From: a bacterium
Lineage (GTDB): Bacteria; Gemmatimonadota; Glassbacteria; GWA2-58-10
Assembly: GCA_021372515.1 (NCBI GenBank)
Contig: JAJFUG010000008.1
Coordinates: forward strand, 1 to 37,811
DNA: 37,811 bases
Direction of reading: 5' to 3'
The position numbers were made by a program, and so were the translations under genes. Of the stretch, positions 323 to 19,239 are shown piece by piece (positions within the stretch are counted from its first letter, which is position 1; each line of letters starts with the position of its first letter). The notes beneath the pieces are model-generated. The model saw nothing but the letters and a program-made list of their open reading frames with translations, was not told the origin of the DNA and searched no databases.

Positions 323-2095
323 TCAGTTGGACACTGTGCTCCGTTCGGCGTTGCGCGCGGCGATTTCTCGGCTGACCCGGTTGACCTTGTCTTGCAGCCC
401 GTCCATCCAGCGGTAGTCGCAGGAGAGCAGGCCGATCAGGGCGGCGCGCTTGAAAGCGGCGGCCCCGGCGGCTCCCTCGAACCCGGCGGCCCGCAGCATC
501 AGAAAATGCTCGTCCGTGACCTCGGTGATAATCCCCCGTTTCTCCAGCTCCGCTCGCAGGCCCTGGCACTCGGCCAGGATGCTGCGCAGGCCGCGGCCCT
601 CCAGGCGCAGGCCCACATCCGGCCACATCGAGGGCGGCTTGTACAGGACATAGTCGTACTCCAGCATGTCCCGCACGAAACTATCGGCCAGCTCGAAACC
701 GTAGCTCTGGCGCTGCTCGAACCAGTCGGCGCCGGGGAACGGCGCGGGCGGGCTGACCAGCACCGAGTCGGGGCCGCAGGCCTCGACCAGCGACAGGTCA
801 TCCGCGGCCAGCTCCTGGAGACTGAACTTACCGCGGGTGGGCGCAGGGTAGATCAGCGACAGGCCGATGTCCAGGTGCACGCCCTCGGCGCGGGCTGCCT
901 CGCGCATGGCGCTCACGGTTGCGATCAGGTCCTCGCGCCGGGCGCCCTTGTTCATCACCGCGGCGTTGGCCTTGTCCGAGCCGGACTCGGCCCCCAGGAA
1001 CACGGCGCGCAGGCCGGCGCGGGTCAGCACCCGGTACGCTTCCACCACCCGTGCTCGCACGGCCGGGTCGGCCGCGCCGGTTTCGGCCCGGGCGAACATC
1101 GAGAATATCACGCTCAGGCCGCGCTCCAGGAGCCGTGCGGCGATGTCCTCGGCCAGCTCCAGTGTGGTGGAGGAGCCGGCGAAACGGAAGATGCCGATCC
1201 CATGCCCGATTTGGTATTCTATCTCCCGCACCACCTGGTCCGCAGGGCGCAGGGAATGCTGGGGGTAGATGCGCGAATGCACGCAGAAACTGCATTTGCC
1301 CCAGGGGCAGCCCAGGGAGTCGACCAGCACGTGTATCATCGTTTTGCCGCGCGTGTCGGTGGAATACACCGGGATGATCTTGTCCTCGGCCGTGTCGGGC
1401 ACGGCGGGAGCGGTGCAGATACGGCCGTCCACGCGCAGCATGGAGTTGCCCAGCTCGCCGCGCGCCAGTGGCTCGGCCAGGGCGGCGAGGAGGCTTCCGC
1501 GGCTGTCAGATTTGCGGGCCAGTCCGAGCAGGCGGGCCAGGGGCTTCTCGCCGCTGCCGGCCACCACCAGGTCGAACAGCCCATCCTCCAGGATCGCCTC
1601 GCGGTAGATCGAGGCGTGCGGGCCGCCGGCCACGATCAGCACCCCGGGGGCGAGCTGGCGCAGCATGGCGGCCAGGCTGCGCGCCGCGGTGAAAGCCTCG
1701 CCGTACCAGGTCTTGATCCCCAGGACCCGGCAGCCCGAGTCGCGCACCCGCAGGGCCAGCTCTCGCAGCATGCGCCTCTGGCGTCGCCGCTGGGTGCGGG
1801 CGACACTCTCCTGCAGCAGGAAGAAAGCGTTGCCGTAGAGCTTGCGGGCGAGCCGTCCCGGCGCGGCGGCTCCCGGCTGCGCCACCAGCCTTTCGGCCAG
1901 GGTGTGGCTCAGACGGGCCAGGGGCTTGGGGGTGAAACTCTCCCACAGCCCGCCGCGCGCCCAGTCCACCACCTCAACCGCGTAGCCGTCCCGGCTCAGT
2001 GCGGTCTCGAGCAGGGCCAGCCCGTTTTCGAGGAACGTGTCGCCCGGCGAGCGCCGCCGCCCGGCCACCGAATTCCAGAGGATGAGTTCAGGCAT
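323..2095 (-). CDS. B12-binding-domain radical SAM protein
   Basis: This 590-residue cytoplasmic protein has an N-terminal region typical of cobalamin-binding radical SAM enzymes (about residues 1-190, including VLGIKTWYGE and LIVAGGPHAS). The DxHxxG lower-ligand motif is absent, as is usual for this class. The radical SAM core (about 250-450) carries the 4Fe-4S cysteines C263, C268 and C271 in a CX4CX2C spacing (GCPWGKCSFC), a variant of CX3CX2C. FLGAESGSD resembles the GxES-type SAM-contact strand. Such proteins methylate or rearrange unactivated carbons; the substrate here is unknown. The ATG at 2095 overlaps the end of the HD-GYP gene by 8 bases, so translation is probably coupled to the signalling genes. 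A methyltransferase gene follows 20 bases downstream. Confidence 0.88.
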   Translation of the reverse strand: MPELILWNSVAGRRRSPGDTFLENGLALLETALSRDGYAVEVVDWARGGLWESFTPKPLARLSHTLAERLVAQPGAAAPGRLARKLYGNAFFLLQESVARTQRRRQRRMLRELALRVRDSGCRVLGIKTWYGEAFTAARSLAAMLRQLAPGVLIVAGGPHASIYREAILEDGLFDLVVAGSGEKPLARLLGLARKSDSRGSLLAALAEPLARGELGNSMLRVDGRICTAPAVPDTAEDKIIPVYSTDTRGKTMIHVLVDSLGCPWGKCSFCVHSRIYPQHSLRPADQVVREIEYQIGHGIGIFRFAGSSTTLELAEDIAARLLERGLSVIFSMFARAETGAADPAVRARVVEAYRVLTRAGLRAVFLGAESGSDKANAAVMNKGARREDLIATVSAMREAARAEGVHLDIGLSLIYPAPTRGKFSLQELAADDLSLVEACGPDSVLVSPPAPFPGADWFEQRQSYGFELADSFVRDMLEYDYVLYKPPSMWPDVGLRLEGRGLRSILAECQGLRAELEKRGIITEVTDEHFLMLRAAGFEGAAGAAAFKRAALIGLLSCDYRWMDGLQDKVNRVSREIAARNAERSTVSN

Positions 2096-3140
2096 CGCGG
2101 CTCTCCCCCACTGCCGGCAGCGAGTCCAGCCCGCCGGATTCGGCCAGGCTGATGAAGGCCTCGACCAGGGACGGGTCCCACATTATGCCCGCGTTGCGCC
2201 GCAGTTCCTCCAGGGCGGTCTCGCGGCTGAGGGCCTTGCGGTAGGAGCGGGTGGTGGTCATGGCGTCGTAGCTGTCGGCGATGGAGACTATCCGGGCCAG
2301 CAGTGGAATCTCCTGCGCGCGCAGACCGCGCGGATACCCTCGCCCGTCGAAGCGCTCATGATGGCAGAGCACCACCTCGCGCACATCGGCCAGCGAGCGC
2401 AGGGGCTTGAGGATCTTGTTGCCGTTGTCCGGGTGGGTGAAAATGCTTTCGCGCTCGTTGCCGTCCAGAGGGCCCTCCTTGTTCAGGATGCTGTCCGGGA
2501 CGCCGATCTTGCCGATGTCGTGGAGGATGCCGGCCATGCGGATCAGGGCGAGATCGTGCTCATCCAGCCCGACCGAGCGGCCCAGGGCCACGGAGTAGAG
2601 CGAGACGCGCTCGTTGTGGCCCTCGGTGTACTTGTCCTTGGCCTCGATGGCGTTGGCCAGGGAGGCGATCACCATGTCGGCCCGCTCGAGCAGGTCGTTC
2701 AGGTGCTTCATCCTGAGCAGCGAGCGCACGCGGGCGCGCAGCTCGGCCAGGTTGACCGGCTTGTTCAGGAAATCATCCGCCCCGGCTTCGATCGCGGCGA
2801 TCTTGTCATCCGGGTTGTTGACCGCGGTGATCATCACCACCGGGATGAGGCGGGTGTCCTCGCCGGACTTGATGATGCGGCAGACCTCGATCCCGCTGAT
2901 ATGGGGCATCATCATGTCGAGCAGGATCAGGTCGGGACGCTGGCTGCGCACCAGCGCCAGCGCCTGGGCGCCATCGGCCGCCTCGAGCGTGGAGTGCCCC
3001 TCCTTGGCCAGCAGGAACGACAGTCCGCGCCGGATGGCGGTGTCGTCATCCACCACCAGCACGAGCGAGCGATAGCCGCCCTCGGTGCCCGCCGGGGGGT
3101 GGTCGGTGGTCTCGGCCTGCCCGGTTTGTGTCTCCATCAT
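2088..3140 (-). CDS. Response regulator with HD-GYP c-di-GMP phosphodiesterase domain
   Basis: This 350-residue cytoplasmic protein has an N-terminal receiver (about 25-145) with acidic pocket D31/D32, phosphoacceptor D75 (LILLDMMMP) and K127. After a helical linker comes an HD-GYP domain (about 155-335) with H207-D208 (ILHDIGK), H260-H261 and the intact signature HHERFDGRGYP ending in G268-Y269-P270. Family knowledge says HD-GYP domains hydrolyse cyclic di-GMP to pGpG or GMP. All expected receiver and metal-binding residues I can check are present, so both halves are probably active. Its start overlaps the stop of the single-domain receiver gene by four bases (ATGA), and its end overlaps the radical SAM gene. 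The histidine kinase of the same operon is the obvious phosphodonor. Confidence 0.93.
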   Translation of the reverse strand: MMETQTGQAETTDHPPAGTEGGYRSLVLVVDDDTAIRRGLSFLLAKEGHSTLEAADGAQALALVRSQRPDLILLDMMMPHISGIEVCRIIKSGEDTRLIPVVMITAVNNPDDKIAAIEAGADDFLNKPVNLAELRARVRSLLRMKHLNDLLERADMVIASLANAIEAKDKYTEGHNERVSLYSVALGRSVGLDEHDLALIRMAGILHDIGKIGVPDSILNKEGPLDGNERESIFTHPDNGNKILKPLRSLADVREVVLCHHERFDGRGYPRGLRAQEIPLLARIVSIADSYDAMTTTRSYRKALSRETALEELRRNAGIMWDPSLVEAFISLAESGGLDSLPAVGESRDA

Positions 3141-3517
3141 CCGTTCTCCAGCAACTGTTTGACCACGCGGATCAGGTCGCGGTAGTCGAAAGGTTTGGTC
3201 ATGTAGTAGTCGGCGCCGGCCTCCAGGCCCTCGGCCCTCTCGCGCTCCTGGCCGCGGGCCGAGAGGAACACGATCCGCACCCGGCTGGTGTCCGGGTCGC
3301 CGCGCAGGGCGCGGCAGACCTGCAGCCCGTTCATCCCGCGCATCATCACGTCCAGCAGCACCAGGTCGGGTTTCTCGCTGCGCACCAGGGCCAGCGCCTG
3401 CTCGCCGTCCTCGCTGGTCAAGGTCTCGAAACCGGCGTTCTCCAGGCAGCGGGCCAGGCCCAGCCTGAGCATGCGCTCATCGTCCACGATCAGAATCTTA
3501 TGCCGGCTTTGGCTCAT
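3137..3517 (-). CDS. Single-domain response regulator (CheY-like receiver)
   Basis: This 126-residue protein consists only of a receiver domain: acidic pair D12-D13 (ILIVDDE), phosphoacceptor D56 (LVLLDVMM), S86 in the Thr/Ser position and K108 (MTKPF). There is no output domain, so it acts by protein contact or as a phosphate shuttle. The start at 3517 is chosen over an upstream ATG at 3592 because GAGGAAAG precedes it and the canonical receiver begins there; the extra N-terminus would lie inside the kinase gene. It overlaps the histidine kinase by 20 bases upstream and the HD-GYP regulator by 4 bases downstream. The likely flow is kinase to this receiver or to the HD-GYP receiver. Confidence 0.9.
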   Translation of the reverse strand: MSQSRHKILIVDDERMLRLGLARCLENAGFETLTSEDGEQALALVRSEKPDLVLLDVMMRGMNGLQVCRALRGDPDTSRVRIVFLSARGQERERAEGLEAGADYYMTKPFDYRDLIRVVKQLLENG

Positions 3518-5207
3518 CGCTTTCCTCGTTCTCTCCCTCCAGGGCGGTGCGCATGTCGGCATCCAGCAGGGTGAACAGGACTGTGGTCCCACGGCCGAGT
3601 TCGCTCTCGATCCAGATCTCGCCGCCCAGGCGCTCGATGATGGACTTGGAGATGGTCATCCCCAGGCCGCTGCCCTCGGAGTGGTGGTCGATGCTCTCCA
3701 ACTGGCCGAAGCGGTCGAAGACTTTAGAGATGTCATCGCCGCGGATGCCCTTGCCCGTGTCCGAGACTGTCACCAGGCCCATCCCGTCACGCCGGCTCAG
3801 CTCCACGCTGATCCGCCCGTTCTCGGGGGTGAAACGCACGGCGTTCGAGACGATGTTGGTCAGGACCTGGATCACCTTGTCGTAATCGCCCCAGAGCCGC
3901 AGGTCGGGAGCTTGGATCTCCCGGTACTCGAAGGCTATGCGCTTGGCCTCGATCGAGGGTTTCAGGCCGTTGAGCGTGTCGGCCACCACGGCGCGGAACT
4001 CCAGCTTGTCCAGCTTGAAACGCATCCGTCCAGCCTCGATCTTGCTCAGGTCGAGCACGTCGTTGATCAGGCGGGTCAGGCGCTTGCAGTTGTCGACAAT
4101 CGTGCCGAGGAACTCGGTGCGGCTTTCCTCGGAGTCGGCCAGGCCGTCGAGCAGCATCTCGGAGTAAAGCAGGATCGAGCTGAGCGGTGTGCGCAGCTCG
4201 TGGGAGACCAGGGAGAGGAAATCGTCCTTGGCCTTGTCCAGGGTCTTAAGGGCCTCGTAGGCGCGCCCCAGCTCGGCGTGCTTGGCCTCCAGCTCGCGGG
4301 TGCGCTCCTGGACGCTGGCCTCGAGCTCGCGGTTCCAGGCCTCGATTTTCTCGCGCGAGGCCTTGAGCTGATCGATCATGTTGTTGAACGATTCGGCCAG
4401 CACGCCGATCTCGTCCTCGCGCTCCACGCTCACCTTGCGGTCGAGGTCTCCGCGGGCCACGGCCTGGGTGGCGCCGGCCAGCTCGAACACCGGTCCGGCC
4501 ACATGGCCCACCATCAGCACGGTGATCAGCGACCCGCCGGCGACCATCAGCAGCGAGATGAGCACGGCCTTGCGCGTTCCGGCCTCCAGGGCGTCGTGCA
4601 GGCTGGCCAGCGAGACATCCAGCACGGCGAAGCCCAGTTTCTGCCTCAGCACGGCCGAGCCCGCGCTCGAGGCCCCGGCAGTGGGCGGCGCGAACAGCAG
4701 CATCTCGTCGTTCTCGGGCGTCTTGCGCTCGATTTCGATCAGGGTGGCGGCGCGCCAGAGGTCGGGCCGCGGGGTGGAGTACCAGCGGCGGCTGGTCAGG
4801 GTGTCCAGCTCGCCTCCGAGCTTCCAGCGCGGGTCGGAGGGCATGTCCAGCCGGGAGGAGCGGGCGTTGGGCGTGACCGTTATCCCGCCGGAGTCGGCCA
4901 GCACCAGGACCTGGCCTTTCAGGTCGGTGATCAGCACCCGCTCGATCTCGCTCTCCTTGAGCACGCCGGAGATGAGGGTCTTGATGGTCACGGTGTCGCG
5001 CGAGAGCACGGCATACTGGCTGTTGAACGCCAGGTTGCCGGAGAGTGAGAGGGCGCGCTTGGCCAGCTCGTCCATCATCGAGCTGCGCTGACGGGAGAGG
5101 AAAAAGGTGGTCAGGGTGGTGGAGATGGCTATGATCAGCAGCACCACCGCCAGGATGGATTTGGCTTTCAGGCGCGAGCGTATTGACCGGACGAGGGTTT
5201 GCAGCAT
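3498..5207 (-). CDS. Membrane-bound sensor histidine kinase
   Basis: This 569-residue inner-membrane protein has a first membrane helix at about residues 18-38, a periplasmic sensor region of about 170 residues and a second helix at about 213-236. A HAMP domain, a coiled coil (about 275-325) and a HisKA domain with phosphorylated H336 (SHELRTPLSS) follow. The HATPase domain has an N box (N451/N455), G1 box DTGKGI (D483), FDRFGQ and G2 box GSGLGM (about 512-517). All catalytic motifs are intact. The C-terminus has an acidic tail (about 555-569). It starts immediately after the stop of the substrate-binding protein, which suggests that the periplasmic protein presents ligand to this sensor; that is inference. 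Confidence 0.93.
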   Translation of the reverse strand: MLQTLVRSIRSRLKAKSILAVVLLIIAISTTLTTFFLSRQRSSMMDELAKRALSLSGNLAFNSQYAVLSRDTVTIKTLISGVLKESEIERVLITDLKGQVLVLADSGGITVTPNARSSRLDMPSDPRWKLGGELDTLTSRRWYSTPRPDLWRAATLIEIERKTPENDEMLLFAPPTAGASSAGSAVLRQKLGFAVLDVSLASLHDALEAGTRKAVLISLLMVAGGSLITVLMVGHVAGPVFELAGATQAVARGDLDRKVSVEREDEIGVLAESFNNMIDQLKASREKIEAWNRELEASVQERTRELEAKHAELGRAYEALKTLDKAKDDFLSLVSHELRTPLSSILLYSEMLLDGLADSEESRTEFLGTIVDNCKRLTRLINDVLDLSKIEAGRMRFKLDKLEFRAVVADTLNGLKPSIEAKRIAFEYREIQAPDLRLWGDYDKVIQVLTNIVSNAVRFTPENGRISVELSRRDGMGLVTVSDTGKGIRGDDISKVFDRFGQLESIDHHSEGSGLGMTISKSIIERLGGEIWIESELGRGTTVLFTLLDADMRTALEGENEESDEPKPA

Positions 5208-6185
5208 TCAACTGCCTCCGTTACGCACGATCACGGCTTTATCCCGCACGGCTTTGGGTATGTTCAGCCCCAGGCTGGAAGCGACGAAATCGTTGATGTA
5301 GAGCTGCACCCGCCGCGGCCCCACCACCCGCGTCCCCGATTCGGCGCCGCTCAGACGGCGCAGGGCCATCTCCGCGGTCTGGCGCCCGATGTCGGAGTAG
5401 TCCACACCCAGGGCCAGCGGAGTGCCGGCCTCGGCCACCGCCCGGCTGGCGGCGATAATGGGTACGCTGTTCTGGAAACATTCGAGCAGGATGAAACGGA
5501 TGATCCGGCTGTCGTAGACCAGGTTGTCGGGCGGCATCCAGACCACGTCCACATCCGGCAGCAGCGAGCGCAGCGCCTCGGGGACATCCCGCTCGCCGCT
5601 GATCACGCGCGGCTCCAGGCGCAGCCCCAGCTCATCGGCCTGACGGATCACCGCGCTGTAGAGAGCGGCGCTCGAACGGCTGTAGAGCAGCCCCACTCGG
5701 CGCGCCTCGGGCAGCGCCTGACGGATCATCTGCAACTGTTCGCGCAGCGGGACCAGCAGGGTTACGCCGGAGGCCGGCAGGTCCGGAGTAGAGTTTGCAT
5801 CCTCACCGGTTGGATTGTCAAGGACAAGTGTGAAAATGAGGGGCAGGTTTCCGGCGTACTGCATACCGGAACGGGTGGCCGGAGTGCCGACCGTGATCAG
5901 AAGGTCGGGCTGTTTCTGGCCCAGGGACTTCCAGAACGCGGGAAGGCGCGCCGGGTCGCTTTCGAGGAACGTTTCCTCGACCTCCACGGACAGGCTGCTC
6001 TCACGCAGGGTCGAGGCGATCACACGCGAGGTCTCGCTGTACTCATGCCAGACCCGGTCGCTTTTGATGAGGACCACCCGCAGAGTCCGGGCCTGGACAG
6101 TCCAGGAGGAGGGCAGCCCCAGCAGCAGGGCGCAGATGAGAGTCAGCCATCGCGGTATATGTCTTGACACCTTTGTCAGCACCAT
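5208..6185 (-). CDS. Periplasmic ABC-type substrate-binding protein (PF04392-like), no permease nearby
   Basis: This 325-residue exported protein has a signal peptide at about residues 1-32 (hydrophobic LTLICALLLGL, cleavage near VQA). The rest has the two-lobed pattern of the ABC_sub_bind family: LLITVGTPATRSG, LIFTLVLDNP, VGLLYSRSSA, VVWMPPDNLVY and the C-terminal lobe SVPIIAASRAVAEAG, closing with LGLNIPKAV. Characterised relatives bind aromatic amino acids or similar small molecules; the ligand here is unknown. No ABC permease or ATPase is adjacent. It sits between a TonB receptor (33 bases upstream) and a histidine kinase (directly abutting), so a sensing role is more likely than transport. 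The ribosome-binding site at 6185 is weak. Confidence 0.85.
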   Translation of the reverse strand: MVLTKVSRHIPRWLTLICALLLGLPSSWTVQARTLRVVLIKSDRVWHEYSETSRVIASTLRESSLSVEVEETFLESDPARLPAFWKSLGQKQPDLLITVGTPATRSGMQYAGNLPLIFTLVLDNPTGEDANSTPDLPASGVTLLVPLREQLQMIRQALPEARRVGLLYSRSSAALYSAVIRQADELGLRLEPRVISGERDVPEALRSLLPDVDVVWMPPDNLVYDSRIIRFILLECFQNSVPIIAASRAVAEAGTPLALGVDYSDIGRQTAEMALRRLSGAESGTRVVGPRRVQLYINDFVASSLGLNIPKAVRDKAVIVRNGGS

Positions 6186-6218: not shown

Positions 6219-8117
6219 TCAGAACCCGAAATTGAGGCCCGCGGTCAGACGGCGGCGGGTTTTTTCGGCCAGAGGGTATTCCAGCTTCCGGCTGTTGAAC
6301 AGGTCGAGCGCGGCGACGAATATTTCTGGCCCGCGCTTGCCGATGTTCCAGGCCAGCCGGGTGTCGCAGCGCAGGTAGGAATCGAGTTCCACGGGCAGGT
6401 AGTCGCCGGTCTGGGTCGGAATCTCCCACACCGTGCGTCCGGTGTACCCGGTCAGGAAAGCCAGCGAGGCGCCGTGCGGCATGGTGAAAAAGGCCTTGAA
6501 CGCGGCCTTATGCTTGGGCGGGCGCTGCTGGCGGCTCACCGTGTAATGGTTCTGCAGGTCCTGGTAGCTGTAGTTGGCCGAGAGTTTCATCCAGTAGACC
6601 GGCACCAGGTCGGCGCTAAGCTCGAACCCGCTGGCCCGGGCGCTGCCCAGGTTGTGGAACGACTGCACCGGAACGCCATCCTCCAGGTGTGGAGCGTCCG
6701 GACCGATGTAGTCGCGGAATCGGTAGGTGAACAGATCGATCTCGGCGCGGAAAGTGTGGCTGGGGAAGAAAGTGTAGCCCAGCTCCCAGGTGGTGTTCTT
6801 CTCGCTCTCCAGGTCGGGCTGACCCACGATCTGCAGCCCGGTGGGGGTCATCAGGCGGAAATAGGAGTCGGTGAACGAGGGGTTGCGGAAAGCCTGCCCC
6901 ACCGAGAAACGCAGGGTGTGATCGGCGCGGGGGCTGTAGATCAGGCTGCCGCGCGGGCTGAAACTGGCCCCCACCAGGGGGTGATGGTCCAGGCGCGCCC
7001 CGACCAGCAGGCTCACCTCGGGCACCAGGCGGTACTCGTCCTGGAAATAGGCGGCCAGAAGGTTCTGGCTGTGGTCGCGGTCGATGATGTTGGACTGGAT
7101 GGTGTTCAGGCGGTAGGAGGCGCCGTAGATCAGGGTGTTATTGCCCCCGATCTCGCTCATGTTCTGGGCCTCGAGGTCGACCGTGTTGTAGAGGATCGAG
7201 ACATCCTCGCCGGGCGAGAAGATCGGGTCGCCGGTCTCGTCCCCGCGGTTCCAGAAAGCCTGGAAATGGAAATCGGAGTGCTCCAGGTTGAGCTTGGCGT
7301 AGGTCGTGGTGGCGTCGAAATCGTTCTGCTCGATGCGCACCACCTGCTCGACCGAGCCGTAGCTCAGGCCGCCCTCCACCGAGAGCCGCAGGTCGTTCTC
7401 GAAACGGTGGCCCAGGTAGAGGTTGCCCAGGACCACGTTCTCGGAATTGTGGTCCGTATCGGCCAGGCTGTTCAGGCGGCGCGAGCCGAGAGCGGCCCGG
7501 AAATCGGTGTCGCCGCGCTGGACCCCGGCCAGGAACGAGCTGAACAGGGTGCCGTTCTCGCCCACCTGGACCTTGACCTGGTCACCCTTGATCTGGCGCG
7601 GGGTCTTGGTGATGATGTTGATCACGCCGCTGAAAGCGTTGGCCCCGTAGAGGGCGCTGCTGGGGCTGCGCACCACCTCGATGCGGTCGATCTGGTCGAG
7701 CAGCACGGGCAGGCCCTCCCAGACCACACCGCCGAAGAAATCGAAATACACCGAGCGGCCGTCGATCAACACCAGCATCTTATTGGACAGAAGCTGGTTG
7801 AGGCCGCGGGCGTTGACCTCGGCGTGGGAGGCGCTCACGGTCATCACGTCCAGACCGGGGACGAAACGCAGCAGCTCGGGGACGGTCAGGGCGCCGGAGG
7901 CCTTGATCTCGGCGGCTGAGATCACTGTCACCGTGGCCGGGGCGCGCTCGATGCTCTGCTCGGTGCGCCCGGCGGTGATGACCTTCTCGATCGGCTGGAA
8001 GAACAGTCTTTCGGTCATTTCATTCTCGGCGCGGCACTGGGAGGGCGCCACGGCGAGAGTAAAACCCGCAATACAGAGCAGCGGCCCCAGCCATGGGCTG
8101 GCGTCTCGGGTCCTCAT
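6219..8117 (-). CDS. TonB-dependent outer-membrane receptor
   Basis: This 632-residue protein has a signal peptide (about 1-30, ending SQCRA), a plug domain (about 45-165) and a 22-strand-type barrel to the C-terminus. Typical plug motifs are visible: TVISAAEIKASG, LVLIDGRSVY and the block ending SALYGANAFSGVINIITK. The chain ends in Phe (LNFGF), as outer-membrane barrel proteins do. The family imports bulky ligands such as siderophores, cobalamin or oligosaccharides using TonB energy; the sequence alone does not tell which. AAGGAG precedes the start. It is the first gene of the seven-gene minus-strand run and probably brings in, or senses, the ligand of the downstream binding protein and kinase. 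Confidence 0.93.
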   Translation of the reverse strand: MRTRDASPWLGPLLCIAGFTLAVAPSQCRAENEMTERLFFQPIEKVITAGRTEQSIERAPATVTVISAAEIKASGALTVPELLRFVPGLDVMTVSASHAEVNARGLNQLLSNKMLVLIDGRSVYFDFFGGVVWEGLPVLLDQIDRIEVVRSPSSALYGANAFSGVINIITKTPRQIKGDQVKVQVGENGTLFSSFLAGVQRGDTDFRAALGSRRLNSLADTDHNSENVVLGNLYLGHRFENDLRLSVEGGLSYGSVEQVVRIEQNDFDATTTYAKLNLEHSDFHFQAFWNRGDETGDPIFSPGEDVSILYNTVDLEAQNMSEIGGNNTLIYGASYRLNTIQSNIIDRDHSQNLLAAYFQDEYRLVPEVSLLVGARLDHHPLVGASFSPRGSLIYSPRADHTLRFSVGQAFRNPSFTDSYFRLMTPTGLQIVGQPDLESEKNTTWELGYTFFPSHTFRAEIDLFTYRFRDYIGPDAPHLEDGVPVQSFHNLGSARASGFELSADLVPVYWMKLSANYSYQDLQNHYTVSRQQRPPKHKAAFKAFFTMPHGASLAFLTGYTGRTVWEIPTQTGDYLPVELDSYLRCDTRLAWNIGKRGPEIFVAALDLFNSRKLEYPLAEKTRRRLTAGLNFGF

Positions 8118-8819: not shown

Positions 8820-8871
8820 GGCGGCGTCTCCGTATAAAACAAACCAAACATAACAATAGTATTATACCTAT

Positions 8872-8901
8872 ATAATTTCTTCAGTATATCAAACCTGTCA
8901 A
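8872..8901 (-). promoter_or_regulatory. Candidate sigma-70 promoter for the HTH-receiver gene
   Basis: The minus strand has a perfect TTGACA (-35; 8896-8901), an 18-base spacer and AATTAT as -10 (8872-8877). A perfect TATAAT also occurs further down at 8861-8866, but too far from the -35. The transcript leader would be about 45 bases. The -35 is strong and the -10 choice is uncertain. Confidence 0.45.
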
Positions 8902-8931
8902 GAAAAATCAATGCCCCGACGGAAAAAAATG

Positions 8932-8946
8932 TGGCATGGAAGTTGT
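8932..8946 (+). promoter_or_regulatory. Candidate sigma-54 (-24/-12) promoter before the first receiver-acyltransferase gene
   Basis: TGGCAT, five bases, then TTGT matches the sigma-54 pattern TGGCAC-N5-TTGC in spacing and in most positions, but the -12 GC is GT here. The leader to the start at 9123 would be about 165 bases. No sigma-54 activator is seen in the window, so this is tentative. Confidence 0.25.
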
Positions 8947-9122
8947 CTTAAAAGCTTCGCGCTGTCTGGAACAGAGCTGGCCCAGACCGGAAGTCTGCAA
9001 CACTGAACTCAAACTTTTCTAAAGTCTTCCATCATGAAAAGCTGAAAATCCGTGGGTGCCAGTCGGAAAAAACGACCGTCGGCGTCAGGCCCCGTGCGGA
9101 AATATTATCCCAGGAGAAGAAC

Positions 9123-10337
9123 ATGGATTGCCGTATCGTGCTGTGGGACTCGGACCGTTCGTTGCGTGAGGCACTGTTCAGCCGTCTGCTGCGCAAGGGT
9201 TTCTACCCGGTTTCGCTGGGCGACCCCTCCAAGCTGGACAAGGCGGTGCGGATGCTCGCCCCAGAGCTGGTGCTGTTCGAGGCGACCTGGGAGCGCGGGG
9301 AGACAGTGAGCCTGGGCGGCGGCGGTGCGGTACCGGTGCAGGACGGCGACTTGTCGCTGGTGCTGCCGCTGGCGGCCGGATCATCCGGGACAGCCTCCGG
9401 GGCGCGCGGCCTGGTGCTGGAGCGCCTGCGCAAGCCGTTCGGCACGCGGGAGCTGCTGGGCGGGATCAGCAGCGCCCTGGCCGTGCGCGAGCGCCTGAAC
9501 CGCCACTGCCGTCCCGGCCGGGAATGGCTGGAGGTCAAGCGTCTGAGCGACGACAGCGAGATCGAGGCGGCGTTGCGCCTGCGGCAGGAGGTCTATCGCG
9601 AGACCGGGTTCATCCAAGCGGGCGCCCTCCCGCTGGAGTACGACCATTACGACCGCAACTCGATCCATTTCGGGGCGTTCCATGTTCAGGGCGCTCAGCG
9701 CGAGTTGGCCGGCACCATCCGTATCATCCGCCGCGGGACAGAGGGCACCCCGACCTGCAGCGAGGCTGTCGAGCGCGTGGTGCGGCGCTACGAGCCGTCC
9801 TGGTGTGAATCGGCCGCCTCGGAAGTGTGCCCCGAGCTGCCGGCACTAAAGACATTCGGCCTGGGGGCCGGAGAGCTGGAGGTCTTTCTGCCCGGGTTCG
9901 GCGGGCGCGAGTCGGCCTGCGGCCGCCGGGCGGGCGGTGAGGTCTGCGAGCTGAGCCGCCTGGCTATCGCGCGGCCCTGGCGGCTCAGCCGTTTCGGGAT
10001 CGAGCGGATGCTGTTCCAGATGATCGTGGTCGATTCGATGGCCGGCAACCCGCGCCGCAACTGGTTCGTGATCGCGGTGCACCCCTCGCGCCAGGCCAAG
10101 TTCGAGCGTTTCGGCTTCCGGGTGCTCGACCAGCTGGGGGTGCGCCCCTACGCCGGGCTGAACCAGCCGGCGATCCTGCTCAGCCTGGACCTGCAGCACT
10201 ATCTGACCACGCCCAACCCGTTCAGCGCCAGCCTGGAGCTGGAGCTCCTGCTTTACCGGGCAGCGGGCTATCTTTCGCACGCGGTGGCCGAGGAAAACGA
10301 GCAAAAAGGGCGGGTCGCAGCGGGTCAGACGGTCTGA
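9123..10337 (+). CDS. Degenerate receiver fused to LuxI/FeeM-type N-acyltransferase, copy 1
   Basis: In this 404-residue protein, residues 1-125 follow a receiver fold: RIVLWDSD (D9, D11), then LVLFEATW where E53 replaces the phosphorylated Asp, and RKPFG with K104. Residues about 133-385 match the autoinducer-synthase/GNAT superfamily: LRLRQEVYRETGF, then LEYDHYD (E172, D174, D177, as in the LuxI ExDxYD signature), GTIRIIRR (R200) and CELSRL (E276, R279, like the LuxI ExSR). About 76 residues separate R200 from E276, against about 31 in LuxI, so it is closer in size to FeeM or exosortase-associated acyltransferases. Family members join an acyl chain to an amino acid or to SAM; acyl donor and acceptor are unknown. 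AGGAGAAG precedes the start. Copy 2 follows after 312 bases. Confidence 0.82.
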   Translation: MDCRIVLWDSDRSLREALFSRLLRKGFYPVSLGDPSKLDKAVRMLAPELVLFEATWERGETVSLGGGGAVPVQDGDLSLVLPLAAGSSGTASGARGLVLERLRKPFGTRELLGGISSALAVRERLNRHCRPGREWLEVKRLSDDSEIEAALRLRQEVYRETGFIQAGALPLEYDHYDRNSIHFGAFHVQGAQRELAGTIRIIRRGTEGTPTCSEAVERVVRRYEPSWCESAASEVCPELPALKTFGLGAGELEVFLPGFGGRESACGRRAGGEVCELSRLAIARPWRLSRFGIERMLFQMIVVDSMAGNPRRNWFVIAVHPSRQAKFERFGFRVLDQLGVRPYAGLNQPAILLSLDLQHYLTTPNPFSASLELELLLYRAAGYLSHAVAEENEQKGRVAAGQTV

Positions 10338-10531
10338 AAGGGGAGAATTCGGGGCAAAACATAACAAACTTCTAAGCTCTAACTTATGTCTATCTCATCA
10401 TATATAAATAATAGATAACATGTAATTTGATAAAAAAATCATTGATTTAATTTGTTTTTCCCGCCATATTTACTTCGCAGATTTAATTCCGCAAGCATAT
10501 TTTCCTTCTCCTGCAATAAAGCAACTAATTT

Positions 10532-10561
10532 TTGATAGAATTCGGATTGCAGGCGTATAAT
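10532..10561 (+). promoter_or_regulatory. Sigma-70-like promoter for receiver-acyltransferase copy 2
   Basis: TTGATA (10532-10537), an 18-base spacer and a perfect TATAAT (10556-10561) form one of the clearest promoters in the window. The transcript leader would be about 80 bases. It implies that copy 2 is expressed separately from copy 1. Confidence 0.6.
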
Positions 10562-10578
10562 AATTCACAGACAGAGGG

Positions 10579-10640
10579 GCCGTCCCGGCAAGGTTTTGTG
10601 GGACGGGCTTCTGACGGCGGCAGGCCACAGTTTAAGCCTG
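10579..10640 (+). promoter_or_regulatory. Two-hairpin 5' leader of copy 2
   Basis: The first hairpin pairs CGTCCC (10581-10586) with GGGACG (10600-10605), extended outward by GC pairs with one bulge. The second pairs CAGGC (10621-10625) with GCCTG (10636-10640), directly before the Shine-Dalgarno sequence GGAGGCGAGG. The second hairpin could limit ribosome access. It fits no riboswitch class I can recognise. Confidence 0.4.
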
Positions 10641-10649
10641 GAGGCGAGG

Positions 10650-11816
10650 ATGAAAGAGACGATACTGTTCCGTGATTCCGATCCGGCGTTGCACGAGGCC
10701 CTTCTGGCGGTGCTCGGCGGACGGGGGTTCAGGGCGCTGGGGCTGGACAGTCCGGCGGTGCTGGGTACGGCGGTCAGGCTGTTCGATCCCGCTCTGCTCG
10801 TCCTGGAGGGCTCGTGGGAACGCGGGGAGCGCATGGTGCTGGCTGACAACCCCTCCGGCGCGGTCAAAGCCGGCTACCTGGCGATAGTCCTGCCGCTGCC
10901 GGGTGTGGGTTGCCGGGGCATGGTGGTGGAGAGCCTGCGCAAGCCGTTCGGCCTGAAACAGCTCCTGGCGGCTGTCAACGGCGCCCTGGAGCTGCGCGCG
11001 AGCCTGAGCCGGATGCCGCGGGGTTACGACACCGAATGGCTGGAGGTGCGCCGCCTGACCGATGAGTCCGAACTGGAGACCGCGTTCCGCCTGCGCCGTG
11101 AGGTCTACCTGGAAACAGGCTATATCGATGACCGCTGCCCGCCCCTGGAATGCGACTGCCTCGACCCGCGCTCGATCATCCTGGGCGCGTTCGTGCACCA
11201 CCGGGGGGAAAGCGAGCTGGGCGGGACGCTGCGTATAATCCGCAGCGGGGGCGATGGGCCGCTGAGCGCGCTGGTCTCGCGCCTGGGCGAGCTGCACGGC
11301 ATGCGCAGCCTGGTTGCCGACGGGGCCGGGGCGCCCCTGCCCGCCTGCGAGTCTTTCGGCCTGATCCCGGATGAGCTGGAGGATTATCAGCCGGGGTTCG
11401 CCTCGATGCACTCGATCACCGGGGCCACTGTGTCGCCGGAGGTCTGCGAGCTGTCGCGCCTGGCCGTGCCCGCCCGCTGGCGCCGTCACCGCCTGGGCAT
11501 CGAGCGCCGGCTGTTCGATCTGGTGGTGGTCGATTCGGTGGCCTCGGCGCCGCGGCGCAACTGGTTCGTCATCGCAGTCCACCCGAGCAAGCGCATGAAA
11601 TTCCACCGCTACGGGTTCCTGGCCGTGAACGACCTGGGCGTGCGGCCCTACGCCGGGCTGGACCAGCCCGCGGTCCTGATGACCCTGGACCTGCAGCAGT
11701 ACCTGCTGACTCCGAACCCGTTCACCGCCAACCTGGACCAGGATGTCCTGCTGTACCGGGCCGGGGGCTGCCTGGTCCACGAGCCGGGCCGGGAGAGCCT
11801 GGCCGCGGCGGGTTGA
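10650..11816 (+). CDS. Degenerate receiver fused to LuxI/FeeM-type N-acyltransferase, copy 2
   Basis: This 388-residue paralogue of the gene at 9123 has the same architecture. The receiver-like part (1-118) has D9/D11 (FRDSD), E53 in the phosphoacceptor position (LLVLEGSW) and K98 (LRKPFG). The acyltransferase part (about 128-370) has FRLRREVYLETGY, LECDCLD (E167, D169, D172), GTLRIIR (R195) and CELSRL (E267, R270). Long blocks are shared with copy 1, such as RRNWFVIAVHPS, LGVRPYAGL and LLTPNPF, so the pair arose by duplication. The region between R195 and E267 is the most divergent and may set substrate choice. The start at 10650 is preferred to an ATG at 10596 because GGAGGCGAGG precedes it and it aligns with copy 1. 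Confidence 0.82.
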   Translation: MKETILFRDSDPALHEALLAVLGGRGFRALGLDSPAVLGTAVRLFDPALLVLEGSWERGERMVLADNPSGAVKAGYLAIVLPLPGVGCRGMVVESLRKPFGLKQLLAAVNGALELRASLSRMPRGYDTEWLEVRRLTDESELETAFRLRREVYLETGYIDDRCPPLECDCLDPRSIILGAFVHHRGESELGGTLRIIRSGGDGPLSALVSRLGELHGMRSLVADGAGAPLPACESFGLIPDELEDYQPGFASMHSITGATVSPEVCELSRLAVPARWRRHRLGIERRLFDLVVVDSVASAPRRNWFVIAVHPSKRMKFHRYGFLAVNDLGVRPYAGLDQPAVLMTLDLQQYLLTPNPFTANLDQDVLLYRAGGCLVHEPGRESLAAAG

Positions 11817-15756: not shown

Positions 15757-17496
15757 CTATTTCGATCCGGGCAGCGGCCCTGCGGTGTGTTTGCGCGGGG
15801 CCGATACGAGATCGCCGAACGCCGGCAGCAGCTCGAACTTGTCCAGCCAGCTCGTGTACATGATCCCCAGCGCGCCGGGGGTGGCATCCAGCGATGCGAG
15901 CCAGGCCGCGTCGTGGTCCAGGTTGTCGGCGTCGTAATAGCCGCAGGCGAACGTGCGGTAGCCCAGGTCGGAGAAGAATTTGAGGCTCTTGTCACGCACC
16001 TCGTAAAACCAGCAGGCGATGATGAGGCCCTTGGGCAGGTGCTCCCAGCTCTTGTCGTAGTTGCCGGCGCAGAGATAGTAGTTGTCGCCGTGACGGTTGT
16101 TGGCGTTGTGGTTGGGGTCGAACATGTCGGACCAGATGACGATCTCGGCGTTCGGGTCGGCGGCCTTGACTATCTCCACCTGTTTCTGCACGCAGTCGCC
16201 GATGATCTCGCCCATGCTCAGGTGGCGGTCGGCGCAGGCTTTGCAGGTGCCGCCCACCCGGACCTCGTCCACGTTCAGGAAATAGTACTTCGGGTGAAGG
16301 TGCTGCTTGATGAGCGGCACGGTGCGGCTCCAGATCTCGTAAACCTCGGGCTCGGACATGCAGCAGGTGACCTGGTCGTTGTAGATCTGGGTAGCGTGGT
16401 ACCAGCTCACGCGCAGGCGCTCGCCGGGCTTGATCCGCGAGCCGGGTAGAATGCCGATCCCGGGGCCGTCGTGCTCGAAATCGTAGTCCATCTGCGGGTC
16501 GGAGACAGGGGCGAAATCACGGCCTTCCTCATACTCCACCCCGCTTTTCTCGCCGCGTACGCTGAGCGGCGCTCCCGGACGGCGCAGCACGTTTACCAGG
16601 CCGATTTCCTCGATGGAGAGGTCGTCGAACCAGATCCGGCCCGGGGTGCGCTCCTGCACTCCGAACGAGATTTCCACCTTGTCGTTGCCGAAGCTGTTGA
16701 ACCCCACCTCGGCCTCGAACCAGTCGGAGGTCTTGGGGTCGCGGATGTTGCGGTAGCAGAGCTCCTGGTGTCCGGCCCCGATGGCGGTCAGGCGAAGGTT
16801 GCCCGAGCCGAAGGGCTGGCTTTCACCCATGTCCTCGACCTTGATCCAGACCCGCAGGCGGTAGCAGCGTTTCGGCTGGACCGGGATGCTCACGCTCAGG
16901 ACGCCGGCCCGGGAGCCCGCCTCCGCGCTTTCCAGGTTCTGGATGCGCAGGCCGGCCTGGCCGCCGTGGAACACCTCGCGGTCCAAGGCCACGCAGTCGG
17001 CCACGCTGTCGCTGAGGCTGAACCCGTCCGGATGCCCGTCCTGTCCGCTCTCGAAGCCGCCGTTGGGTATCCCGACCGCCGGGTCGGCGGTAAGGACAGC
17101 CTCGGTCTTGCCGGCCACGAACAGGGCATCCACCACGGGCATGCCCTCGGCCAGGTTGCGGTTGTGCGAGAGCAGGCCGCCGTTGTAGCCCACGTTCAGG
17201 CAACCGGCGGCGATATCGACATGCAGGCTGTCGCACAGGTCGCGCAGGTGGTACAGGCGGCGCAGGTAGTCCTCGCCCTTCTGGTCGATCTGGTCGAAAG
17301 CGGCGGAGAGCAGGAACCCGTTCAGCCCGTGCTCGTGGCCCACTTTCACCAAGCCCTCGACCCGGGCCAGCTCCTCGTCGCTCTGCAGTCCGGTGGAGAT
17401 GTAGTTCCAGCGGATCGGATAGACCGTGCCGCGGCTGCAGGAAACCGCGAGCAGCGCGGCCAGGGACAGTAATAAGAGCAAAATGTTACGCTTCAT
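15757..17496 (-). CDS. Lipoprotein of an unrecognised glycosidase-like family, paralogue A
   Basis: This 579-residue protein has a lipoprotein signal peptide (lipobox LAVSC, C20). The first barrel-like strands (about 25-130) are followed by a jelly-roll, carbohydrate-binding-module-like insertion (about 143-298; from IPNGGFESG to RIWFDDLSI). The remaining TIM-barrel-like half has conserved SEP (381-383), FLNVDE (D410-E411), GTCKAC (C418, C421) and IWSDMFDPNHNA (455-465). An adjacent Asp-Glu pair after a hydrophobic strand recalls GH20-type catalytic residues, so hydrolysis of an N-acetylated or similar sugar is possible but unproven. AGGGAGAA precedes the start. It is last in a run of six minus-strand genes and lies 24 bases after paralogue B. 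Confidence 0.7.
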   Translation of the reverse strand: MKRNILLLLLSLAALLAVSCSRGTVYPIRWNYISTGLQSDEELARVEGLVKVGHEHGLNGFLLSAAFDQIDQKGEDYLRRLYHLRDLCDSLHVDIAAGCLNVGYNGGLLSHNRNLAEGMPVVDALFVAGKTEAVLTADPAVGIPNGGFESGQDGHPDGFSLSDSVADCVALDREVFHGGQAGLRIQNLESAEAGSRAGVLSVSIPVQPKRCYRLRVWIKVEDMGESQPFGSGNLRLTAIGAGHQELCYRNIRDPKTSDWFEAEVGFNSFGNDKVEISFGVQERTPGRIWFDDLSIEEIGLVNVLRRPGAPLSVRGEKSGVEYEEGRDFAPVSDPQMDYDFEHDGPGIGILPGSRIKPGERLRVSWYHATQIYNDQVTCCMSEPEVYEIWSRTVPLIKQHLHPKYYFLNVDEVRVGGTCKACADRHLSMGEIIGDCVQKQVEIVKAADPNAEIVIWSDMFDPNHNANNRHGDNYYLCAGNYDKSWEHLPKGLIIACWFYEVRDKSLKFFSDLGYRTFACGYYDADNLDHDAAWLASLDATPGALGIMYTSWLDKFELLPAFGDLVSAPRKHTAGPLPGSK

Positions 17497-17520: not shown

Positions 17521-19239
17521 TTACTTGAGTTTCCGGTTGACCAGGTCGCCGAACTGCGAAAGGGCATTGAAATTCTCGTTCCAGGTTGTGTACATGATCC
17601 CCACCGCGCCGCTGGTGGCATCCAGGGATTTGAGCCAGCCGCGGGCGGTGTCGAGGCCACCGGAGCTTGAGCCGAGGGTGCGCAGGCCCAGGCTGTTGAA
17701 ATGCGCCAGGCTCTTGTCGCGCACCTCGCCATACCAGCAGACCATGATCACGTCCTTGGGCAGGTAGTTCCAGGAGCCCTCGAACGTCCCGTCCACATGG
17801 TAATAGTAGTTCTGGCCGTGCTGGTTCCCGGCGTTGTGGTTGGGGTCGAACATGTCGGTCCAGACGAAGATTTCGGCATCCGGGTTGATCGACTTGACTA
17901 TGTCGCGCTGACGGGTGATGCAGTCGGCGGCCAACTGTCCGGGGGTCAGGCCGCGGGCCTTGCAGGTCTCGCAGTTGCCGCACATGCGCAGCTCGTCCAG
18001 GCCAAAGAAATACTTCTTCGGCTTGATGATCCCGTCCAGCAGGGTGATCACCTGGCGGCAGATGTCATAGTAGCGCGGCTCGGAGATGCAGGCCGGGGTC
18101 TGGCCGTTGTAGATCGGGTAGTTGTTGTAGAAACTGACCCGCAGGCGCTCGCCCTCTTTGATGTAGCCGCCGGGGATGATCCGGATGGCCGGGGCGGGAT
18201 GGTCGAAGAGCAGGGTCTTGAGCGGGTCCTCGACCCGGGCGAAGTCACGGCCCTCGGTGTAAACCTGGCCGCTCTTGTCGGACTTGACCACCAGCGGGGC
18301 GCCCTCGCGGCGGATCACGTTGATCAGGCCTTCCTCGGCGATACTGTAGTCATCGATCCAGAACTTGCCGCTCTTGCCCGAGGGGCAGCCGACCGAGACA
18401 GTCACATCGGTGTTTTCCAGGCTGTTGAACCCGACCTGGGCCAGCACCCAGCCGTCCGAGGTGGCCGGCACCACCGGGATGTAGTACTGCAAGCGGCGGC
18501 CGTTCGCCCCCTGGACCAGCATCGGGAACACATCCCCGCGGCCGTCCAGGCCCTGGGTCCTGACCCAGCAGCTCAGGCGGTAGCAGCGTCCGGGGTGCAC
18601 AGGGATTTTGCGCGAGACCAGGGAACCCCAGTCCTGGAACTCACCCGACAGGTCGGCGATCTGGTCGGTCATCTCGACCCGCAGCGAGTTCTTGCCGCTC
18701 TTGCACACTTTGCTGTCCAGGCTGAGCAGGGCGCCTTTCTTGACTACCTGCTCCCAGCCGGCGGGCAGCGTCCCCGCGGCTTCCTCGAACCCGCCGTTGG
18801 GGATCGAGACAGCCGGGTCGGGAACCACATTCGCCAGGCCGCCTTTGACCTCGAACAGGACATCCTTGACCGGCAGGCCCTCCAGAAGGTTCTTGTCCCA
18901 GGCCAGGGTGGGCGCGTTGTAGCCCATCGGGCAGACTCCCGGGATCAGCTCCACGTCGCAACTGTCGCAGATACGCTTGATTTCGTAGAGGTTCTTTACG
19001 TTGTAAGGCGGCTCCAGGGGCAGACGGTCGAGCATGGCGCTCAGGATAATGCCGTTGAGGCCGTGGTCCTTGGCCGTGCGGGCCAGATTGCGCACCAGCT
19101 CCACCTGGGCCATGTCTTCCAGGGCTTTGCCGTGCAGGTAAATGAAGCGGTAGGGATAGATTTTTCCCTGCTGCGCATTGGCGTTGACTGCTCCCAGGGC
19201 CAGGAACGCCAGCAGTGCCAGGACGAAGAATCTTTTCAT
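17521..19239 (-). CDS. Secreted protein of the same glycosidase-like family, paralogue B
   Basis: This 572-residue protein has a conventional signal peptide (about 1-22, ending NANA) and no lipobox, unlike its two neighbours. It is probably periplasmic or released. The order of parts is the same: an N-terminal half-barrel, a jelly-roll-like insertion (about 147-300; SIPNGGFEE to FWIDDYSI) and a C-terminal half with SEP (386-388), FFGLDE (D415-E416), GNCETC (C423, C426; extra C420) and VWTDMFDPNHNA (459-470). The Asp-Glu pair and DPNHN are strictly kept among the three copies, which marks them as likely active-site residues. AAGGAGAGAGG precedes the start. Confidence 0.7.
   Translation of the reverse strand: MKRFFVLALLAFLALGAVNANAQQGKIYPYRFIYLHGKALEDMAQVELVRNLARTAKDHGLNGIILSAMLDRLPLEPPYNVKNLYEIKRICDSCDVELIPGVCPMGYNAPTLAWDKNLLEGLPVKDVLFEVKGGLANVVPDPAVSIPNGGFEEAAGTLPAGWEQVVKKGALLSLDSKVCKSGKNSLRVEMTDQIADLSGEFQDWGSLVSRKIPVHPGRCYRLSCWVRTQGLDGRGDVFPMLVQGANGRRLQYYIPVVPATSDGWVLAQVGFNSLENTDVTVSVGCPSGKSGKFWIDDYSIAEEGLINVIRREGAPLVVKSDKSGQVYTEGRDFARVEDPLKTLLFDHPAPAIRIIPGGYIKEGERLRVSFYNNYPIYNGQTPACISEPRYYDICRQVITLLDGIIKPKKYFFGLDELRMCGNCETCKARGLTPGQLAADCITRQRDIVKSINPDAEIFVWTDMFDPNHNAGNQHGQNYYYHVDGTFEGSWNYLPKDVIMVCWYGEVRDKSLAHFNSLGLRTLGSSSGGLDTARGWLKSLDATSGAVGIMYTTWNENFNALSQFGDLVNRKLK

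Follow-up and report, generated by a model that had tools for sequence, protein, structure and literature searches.

Two adjacent genes on a 37,811-base contig (JAJFUG010000008.1), the whole of which is referred to here as the window, each encode a receiver-like domain joined to an N-acyltransferase of the FeeM type (fusions A and B). The contig is part of a 4.87-Mb genome of Candidatus Glassbacteria (Gemmatimonadota) that is 99.5% complete. Seven such fusions from five genomes were analyzed, and the combination of a pseudo-receiver with a FeeM-type N-acyltransferase is a genuine, lineage-restricted architecture that was seen in Candidatus Glassbacteria genomes alone. We consider it probable that these proteins are N-acyl amino acid (or related aminolipid) synthases that are subject to two-component regulation and contain a phosphorylation-dead regulatory domain. 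Bacteria produce lipid signals and surfactants in large part through acyl-acyl carrier protein (acyl-ACP) N-acyltransferases, which are a major route to such compounds and are usually stand-alone enzymes. A sequence-only reading of the window had proposed that a receiver fold is joined to a LuxI/FeeM-superfamily acyltransferase; profiles and predicted folds confirmed this for both open reading frames (ORFs), which lie where that reading had placed them. It had also named no characterized synthase with a receiver attached as known. No published fusion of a receiver to a FeeM or LuxI domain was found in the literature searched, and the domain combination looks new.

The C-terminal domain is a member of the FeeM-type superfamily on the basis of both profile and fold. 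Fusions A and B scored 59.7 and 45.3 bits, respectively, against Pfam FeeM (PF21926; gathering cut-off 27). All seven fusions matched this family, and six of the seven also matched Acetyltransf_5. The autoinducer synthase family PF00765 (Autoind_synth) gave no match to A or B even at E ≤ 1. Scores against TIGR03694 were 35 (A) and 22.6 bits (B), far below the cut-off of 111.95, with the weak similarity lying in the opening third of the domain. AlphaFold2 predictions for the full-length protein (mean predicted local distance difference test score, pLDDT, of 68; predicted template modeling score, pTM, of 0.70) and of the acyltransferase domain alone (67 and 0.71) were compared with the PDB using Foldseek. 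FeeM (2G0B) was the top match to the whole model (E = 4e-6) and to the domain alone (E = 2e-5), with a target TM score of ~0.6, and it was the sole solved family at E ≤ 0.001 in both searches. The acyl-homoserine lactone (AHL) synthases BjaI, RpaI and LasI ranked below FeeM, with E values of ~0.01-0.1. Because a PDB sequence search with the acyltransferase domain alone identified no acyltransferase relatives, the link to FeeM rests on Pfam and the fold.

The residues that the sequence-only reading had described as LuxI-type, an ExDxxD motif, a following Arg and ELSR, are present in both proteins (Table 1), with the reported Arg-to-ELSR spacing of 76 (A) and 72 (B). In the numbering of A, all seven fusions, from five genomes, share R154, Y158, D174, D177, R200, E276, S278 and R279, and they have either Glu or Asp at position 172. 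Conservation of this kind shows that the occurrence of the residues is not a matter of chance. We aligned the fusions using hhalign with a profile of six plasmid-borne AHL synthases taken from the database. R154/Y158, E172/D174/D177, R200 and E276/R279 were in register over 168 columns with the R/aromatic pair, ExDxxD, Arg and ExxR of the LuxI-type enzymes (PF00765; LasI 1RO5, BjaI 5W8A), although a probability of 9% and an E value of 0.0035 make the comparison weak evidence for homology. Unlike the LuxI-type enzymes, the fusions contain an insertion of ~45 residues between the Arg and ELSR (Arg-to-ExxR distance of 72-76 versus ~31), do not match PF00765, and have no LuxR-type partner: the autoinducer-binding domain PF03472 was unmatched in the genome, while the control matched in E. 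coli. Strict AHL quorum sensing is not supported by the last two results.

Similarity to FeeM includes the GNAT domain, the top profile and fold match, and the conserved Glu at the ExxQ/ExxR site. FeeM is a single-domain protein, whereas the window proteins are longer and contain a C-terminal extension. At the site of ExxQ in FeeM (E94, Q97; PMC9654057), fusion A reads E276-L-S-R279, the very sequence that LasI has there (E101, L102, S103 and R104; PMC9654057). A closer relationship of the C-terminal domain to FeeM than to LuxI is supported. The wide Arg-to-ELSR spacing had been taken to indicate either FeeM-like or exosortase-associated relatives. The first of these stood. A PEP-CTERM/exosortase-associated acyltransferase was rejected, with TIGR03694 far under its cut-off and no match to the exosortase family PF09721 in the genome (one control genome matched). 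The moderate FeeM family scores and the insertion before ELSR would be consistent with an acyltransferase fold that is inactive or modifies proteins, the fusion serving as a regulatory or scaffold protein. We regard this as very improbable: all of the catalytic-type residues are invariant, though the C-terminal domains are only 40-54% identical across the fusions (except for one 75% pair).

An amine is the most likely acyl acceptor, but the sequence does not reveal which one. The ExDxxD/Arg/ExxR arrangement is by itself not diagnostic of a signal synthase because it is common to acyl-ACP N-acyltransferases broadly, as the Acetyltransf_5 matches illustrate; we take this family to include the OlsB-type enzymes of ornithine lipid synthesis. 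The same matches are compatible with a plain aminolipid or surfactant enzyme under environmental control, which would produce an N-acyl amino acid surfactant or an ornithine-lipid-like membrane lipid without any role in signaling. N-acyl tyrosines are surface-active and alter biofilms in the planctomycete Stieleria (PMC7293339), and the radical-SAM and methyltransferase genes near the fusions suit a tailored product. However, a role in bulk lipid synthesis alone fits less well with the fusion to a regulatory fold and with the constant position next to a sensor system, and the locus showed no second enzyme for O-acylation. We consider this alternative a serious one, although we give it less than even chances.

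The N-terminal domain is a pseudo-receiver that has lost the phospho-acceptor Asp and the second acidic residue while retaining the Lys. Pfam Response_reg (PF00072) did not match this domain of A or B even at E ≤ 1. However, a profile of the seven fusions found receiver domains in the PDB (PhoB, Spo0F), the best being PhoB chain 2JB9 (8e-8), which is named in the Foldseek table as the constitutively active D10A/D53E mutant. AlphaFold2 produced a largely confident but incomplete receiver fold for residues 1-127, in which the alpha3 and alpha4 helices were unformed, and a Foldseek match to MtrA covered ~50 columns. In the model, strand beta3 ends with residue 53, the place of the phospho-Asp; this residue is Glu in five fusions and Pro in two. 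Position 9 is Asp or Glu, the second acidic position (residue 10) is Ser, Ala or Pro, the Thr (residue 83) is replaced by Leu, Ala or Glu, and K104 is present in all seven. Thus, the receiver-like domain of the sequence-only reading has the fold but is not a canonical receiver.

Glu is the most frequent substitute at the Asp position of aspartate-less receivers, and ~80% of pseudo-receivers have a non-acidic residue at the second acidic position (PMC12632262). The replacement of Asp by Glu together with loss of the second acidic residue is a common pattern that the window fusions share with these proteins (PMC12632262, PMC4395418). The window domain differs from a typical aspartate-less receiver in being too diverged for Pfam Response_reg, in its unformed helices and in its acyltransferase output; the word acyltransferase does not appear in the main text of PMC12632262 or PMC4395418. 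The activation mechanism of pseudo-receivers has been called a mystery (PMC12632262), and a phosphorylation-dead receiver attached to an acyltransferase would constitute an enzyme-linked pseudo-receiver with a directly assayable output.

With no phospho-acceptor Asp in the pseudo-receiver, the enzyme is unlikely to be controlled by a classical phosphorelay. The domain probably serves as a constitutive or ligand-responsive dimerization or regulatory domain. One tentative possibility is that the acyl product, or an intermediate of the pathway, binds to it and thereby switches the attached enzyme. This would explain why every copy has lost the phospho-site yet kept the fold. Precedents are JadR1 and RedZ, whose pseudo-receivers bind the final products of pathways that they control (PMC12632262). 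However, these precedents are transcription factors rather than enzymes, and no ligand site can be named from the sequence.

Full-length fusions were found among 150 relatives only in the family of the window, where three genomes have a single copy and G000 and G001 have two each. Relatives of the same family include Candidatus Glassbacteria contigs MFIX01000221.1 and JAUVUV010000345.1 and one bin labeled Gemmatimonadales (JAJRTS010000035.1). A scan of 84,980 species genomes using peptide patterns from the seven fusions, which was of limited sensitivity, identified four loci, all in the clade of the window; an earlier scan with a two-sequence alignment gave no matches as its peptide patterns were too specific. 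Mean pairwise identity over the fusions was 37% for the N-terminal domain compared to 48% for the enzyme domain. Stand-alone FeeM-type proteins from four of these genomes formed a separate clade (support 100/100). The sequence-only reading had described A and B as adjacent, diverged copies, and this description holds: they are 50% identical. The pair probably arose by duplication within this lineage, because the two window copies are sisters in the tree (86/96). For B we preferred the ATG at 10650, which has a GGAGG-like site just upstream, over the TTG at 10596 of the mechanically called ORF; residue numbers in the sequence-only reading match the resulting 388-residue form.

For each of the five copies whose flanks could be read, a gene encoding a response regulator with an HTH_17 DNA-binding domain divergently adjoins the fusion. 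Four genomes have complete context (that of the window, G001, G003 and G005), and in these the regulator gene is followed by those for a TonB-dependent receptor, an ABC_sub_bind periplasmic binding protein and a histidine kinase, and then by genes for a single-domain response regulator (not called in G001), an HD-GYP-type response regulator and a B12-binding radical S-adenosylmethionine (SAM) protein. The second copy in G001 has the HTH_17 regulator and two response regulator genes without the receptor, binding protein or kinase. The fusion contig of G004 was too short for this comparison, and that of G002 breaks off at the expected position of the fusion.

From this arrangement, the reading that we favor, a two-component-regulated synthase, would operate as follows. 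The TonB-dependent receptor and periplasmic protein would deliver or bind a ligand, the histidine kinase would phosphorylate the genuine response regulators encoded there, and one of them, the divergent HTH_17 protein, would switch the acyltransferase genes, with two-component control acting on transcription. The most likely reaction would be N-acylation of an amino acid, or of a comparable small amine, with a fatty acyl chain, and the radical-SAM enzyme and methyltransferase would tailor the product. Transcriptional control by the HTH_17 regulator is the best-supported mechanistic step that we infer. The hexamer ATAACA was enriched on one strand upstream of the fusions (19 found versus ~1.8 expected in seven regions, for a motif picked after inspecting these same regions) and was present in six of the seven. 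Direct repeats containing ATAACA occur upstream of fusions in the window and its relatives, in places 9-18 bp apart. These repeats are suggestive of a shared operator for the HTH_17 regulator. Because 312 AT-rich base pairs with a sigma-70-like site lie between A and B, the two genes are probably transcribed separately, with B having its own promoter.

Several points weigh against this reading. Only seven fusion sequences from five genomes are available, the GNAT part of both models was of modest confidence (mean pLDDT 67-68), and the hhalign probability against LuxI alone was low. Nothing in the locus fixes the substrate. ATAACA was missing from one upstream region and occurs singly before fusion A, and control of the fusion genes by the HTH_17 regulator is deduced from sequence.

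The receptor, binding protein and kinase genes, often with an HTH_17 response regulator gene of their own, also occur without an acyltransferase gene at other loci: L086 and L087 lie in the same genome, and L089, L090 and L091 belong to relatives and other Gemmatimonadota. L088, also in the same genome, contains a binding protein gene and a likely sensor gene. Neighboring genes at L086-L091 were recognized by length and sequence rather than by Pfam scan. Because the module recurs without the acyltransferase, we conclude that it is a general sensor module and that the acyltransferase is an addition at one locus; a module specific to the acyltransferase was rejected. No ABC transporter genes were seen in the repeated modules (L086, L087, L089, L090, L091), some of which include the HTH_17 regulator, and they look like a widespread Gemmatimonadota sensor system.

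LuxP and LuxQ read autoinducer 2 (AI-2). The locus shares with them the idea of a periplasmic binding protein coupled to a histidine kinase, which is a functional analogy only. By this analogy the fusions could belong to an autocrine system, in which the N-acyl amino acid made by the pseudo-receiver enzyme would be sensed via the TonB-dependent receptor, the aromatic-type periplasmic protein and a kinase feeding back on the synthase gene; we think this distinctly improbable. A self-sensing circuit stated more generally, in which an N-acyl amino acid signal leaves the cell, returns through the TonB-dependent receptor, is bound by the periplasmic protein and is read by the kinase, is unlikely, though slightly less so. 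Synthase, outer-membrane receptor, transporter-less binding protein, kinase and regulators are linked in the four full-context genomes. The binding protein is a clear homologue of the aromatic amino acid binding proteins of PF04392 (CD0873, VC_1101, SP1069), although it is linked to a TonB-dependent receptor and a histidine kinase rather than to ABC transporter genes. Solved members of this family hold Tyr, Phe or Trp (PMC6816091), and FeeM 2G0B holds N-dodecanoyl-L-tyrosine (PMC9654057). An aromatic-binding family beside a FeeM-type enzyme is an attractive coincidence and not evidence of binding. Moreover, the five modules that lack the acyltransferase, the second copy in G001 with its regulators but without the sensor genes, and a genome without a LuxR-type domain all argue against self-sensing. 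A role for the product as a cell-cell signal is a guess. Nevertheless, for acyl-signal sensing in Gemmatimonadota the locus provides a specific candidate that can be tested.

Table 1. Positions of the fusion genes, their domains and flanking features in the window
Feature	Position	Strand	Basis
SAM methyltransferase, start only, cut by contig end	1..302	-	Pfam Methyltransf_25 3.6e-10
B12-binding radical SAM protein	323..2095	-	Pfam; phylum search
Response regulator, HD-GYP-type output (putative cyclic di-GMP phosphodiesterase)	2088..3140	-	Pfam Response_reg 6.4e-33, HD_5 2.5e-38
Single-domain response regulator, ATG start inside mechanical ORF 3137-3592	3137..3517	-	Pfam Response_reg 1.1e-29
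Sensor histidine kinase (HAMP-HisKA-HATPase)	3498..5207	-	Pfam
ABC_sub_bind periplasmic binding protein, no adjoining transporter gene	5208..6185	-	Pfam PF04392 1.2e-29; solved relatives 3LKV, 6HNI, 3LFT
TonB-dependent receptor	6219..8117	-	Pfam 8.5e-39; NCBIfam TOL_0244 family 278 bits, under cut-off 645
HTH_17 DNA-binding domain + canonical receiver, 200 aa	8217..8819	-	Pfam Response_reg 3.5e-26, HTH_17 1.4e-9; divergent from fusion A
Divergent intergenic region, HTH_17 regulator/fusion A; one ATAACA, promoter-like sites for - strand gene	8820..9122	.	
Fusion A, 404 aa: pseudo-receiver + FeeM-type N-acyltransferase	9123..10337	+	ORF, translation; Pfam FeeM 3.7e-16; Foldseek FeeM 2G0B E 4.3e-6
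Pseudo-receiver domain of A, residues 1-127 (D9, S10, E53, L83, K104)	9123..9503	+	Family profile vs PDB; AlphaFold2 fold; residue table
FeeM-type GNAT domain of A, residues 134-404 (R154, Y158, E172, D174, D177, R200, E276, R279)	9522..10337	+	
Intergenic region before fusion B, 312 bp, AT-rich; two ATAACA, sigma-70-like site 10532-10561 (11/12)	10338..10649	.	
Fusion B, 388 aa: pseudo-receiver + FeeM-type N-acyltransferase	10650..11816	+	ORF; Pfam FeeM 1e-11; identity to A 50%
Pseudo-receiver domain of B, ~residues 1-121 (D9, S10, E53)	10650..11012	+	Alignment
FeeM-type GNAT domain of B (E167, D169, D172, R195, E267, R270)	11034..11816	+	

Across a phylum sample of 395 genomes, each of the six Glassbacteria carries the radical-SAM protein and no other genome does; like the fusion, its gene was restricted to Glassbacteria within the genomes searched. 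The protein is 52-55% identical between the compared genomes and had no NCBIfam family above cut-off. Beyond the radical-SAM gene, both the window and G001 have the methyltransferase gene. G004 has a stand-alone FeeM-type gene between the radical-SAM and methyltransferase genes, starting 2 bp after the former, and G002 contains the same radical-SAM/FeeM pair. Stand-alone FeeM-type genes 2 bp after a radical-SAM gene are at L050:1441-2313 and L051:9192-10064 in two Glassbacteria. This arrangement suggests that the radical-SAM and stand-alone FeeM-type genes function in a joint pathway.

On the other side of the fusions, positions 15757-35886 of the window contain genes of polysaccharide or sugar type (GH42 trimerization domain, acetyl xylan esterase, GFO/IDH/MocA oxidoreductase, sortilin/BNR repeats). 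Two secreted-looking proteins of 570-580 residues encoded there (15757-17496 and 17521-19239) had no Pfam match.

Other FeeM matches in the phylum differ in architecture from the pseudo-receiver fusion. In other Gemmatimonadota, an N-terminal FeeM-family GNAT domain is fused to an aminotransferase-like domain in proteins of ~490-575 residues (L018, L019, L020, L022, L023, L024, L029 and L040, with the FeeM match at position 1501 of each, and L059:5056-6582). The aminotransferase-like part matched Aminotran_5 weakly in the one member scanned (L054/L018) and Aminotran_1_2 clearly in L059. At L053:6782-7936, a FeeM-type GNAT domain is followed by a cyclic-nucleotide-binding domain, which represents another regulatory fusion of this enzyme class.

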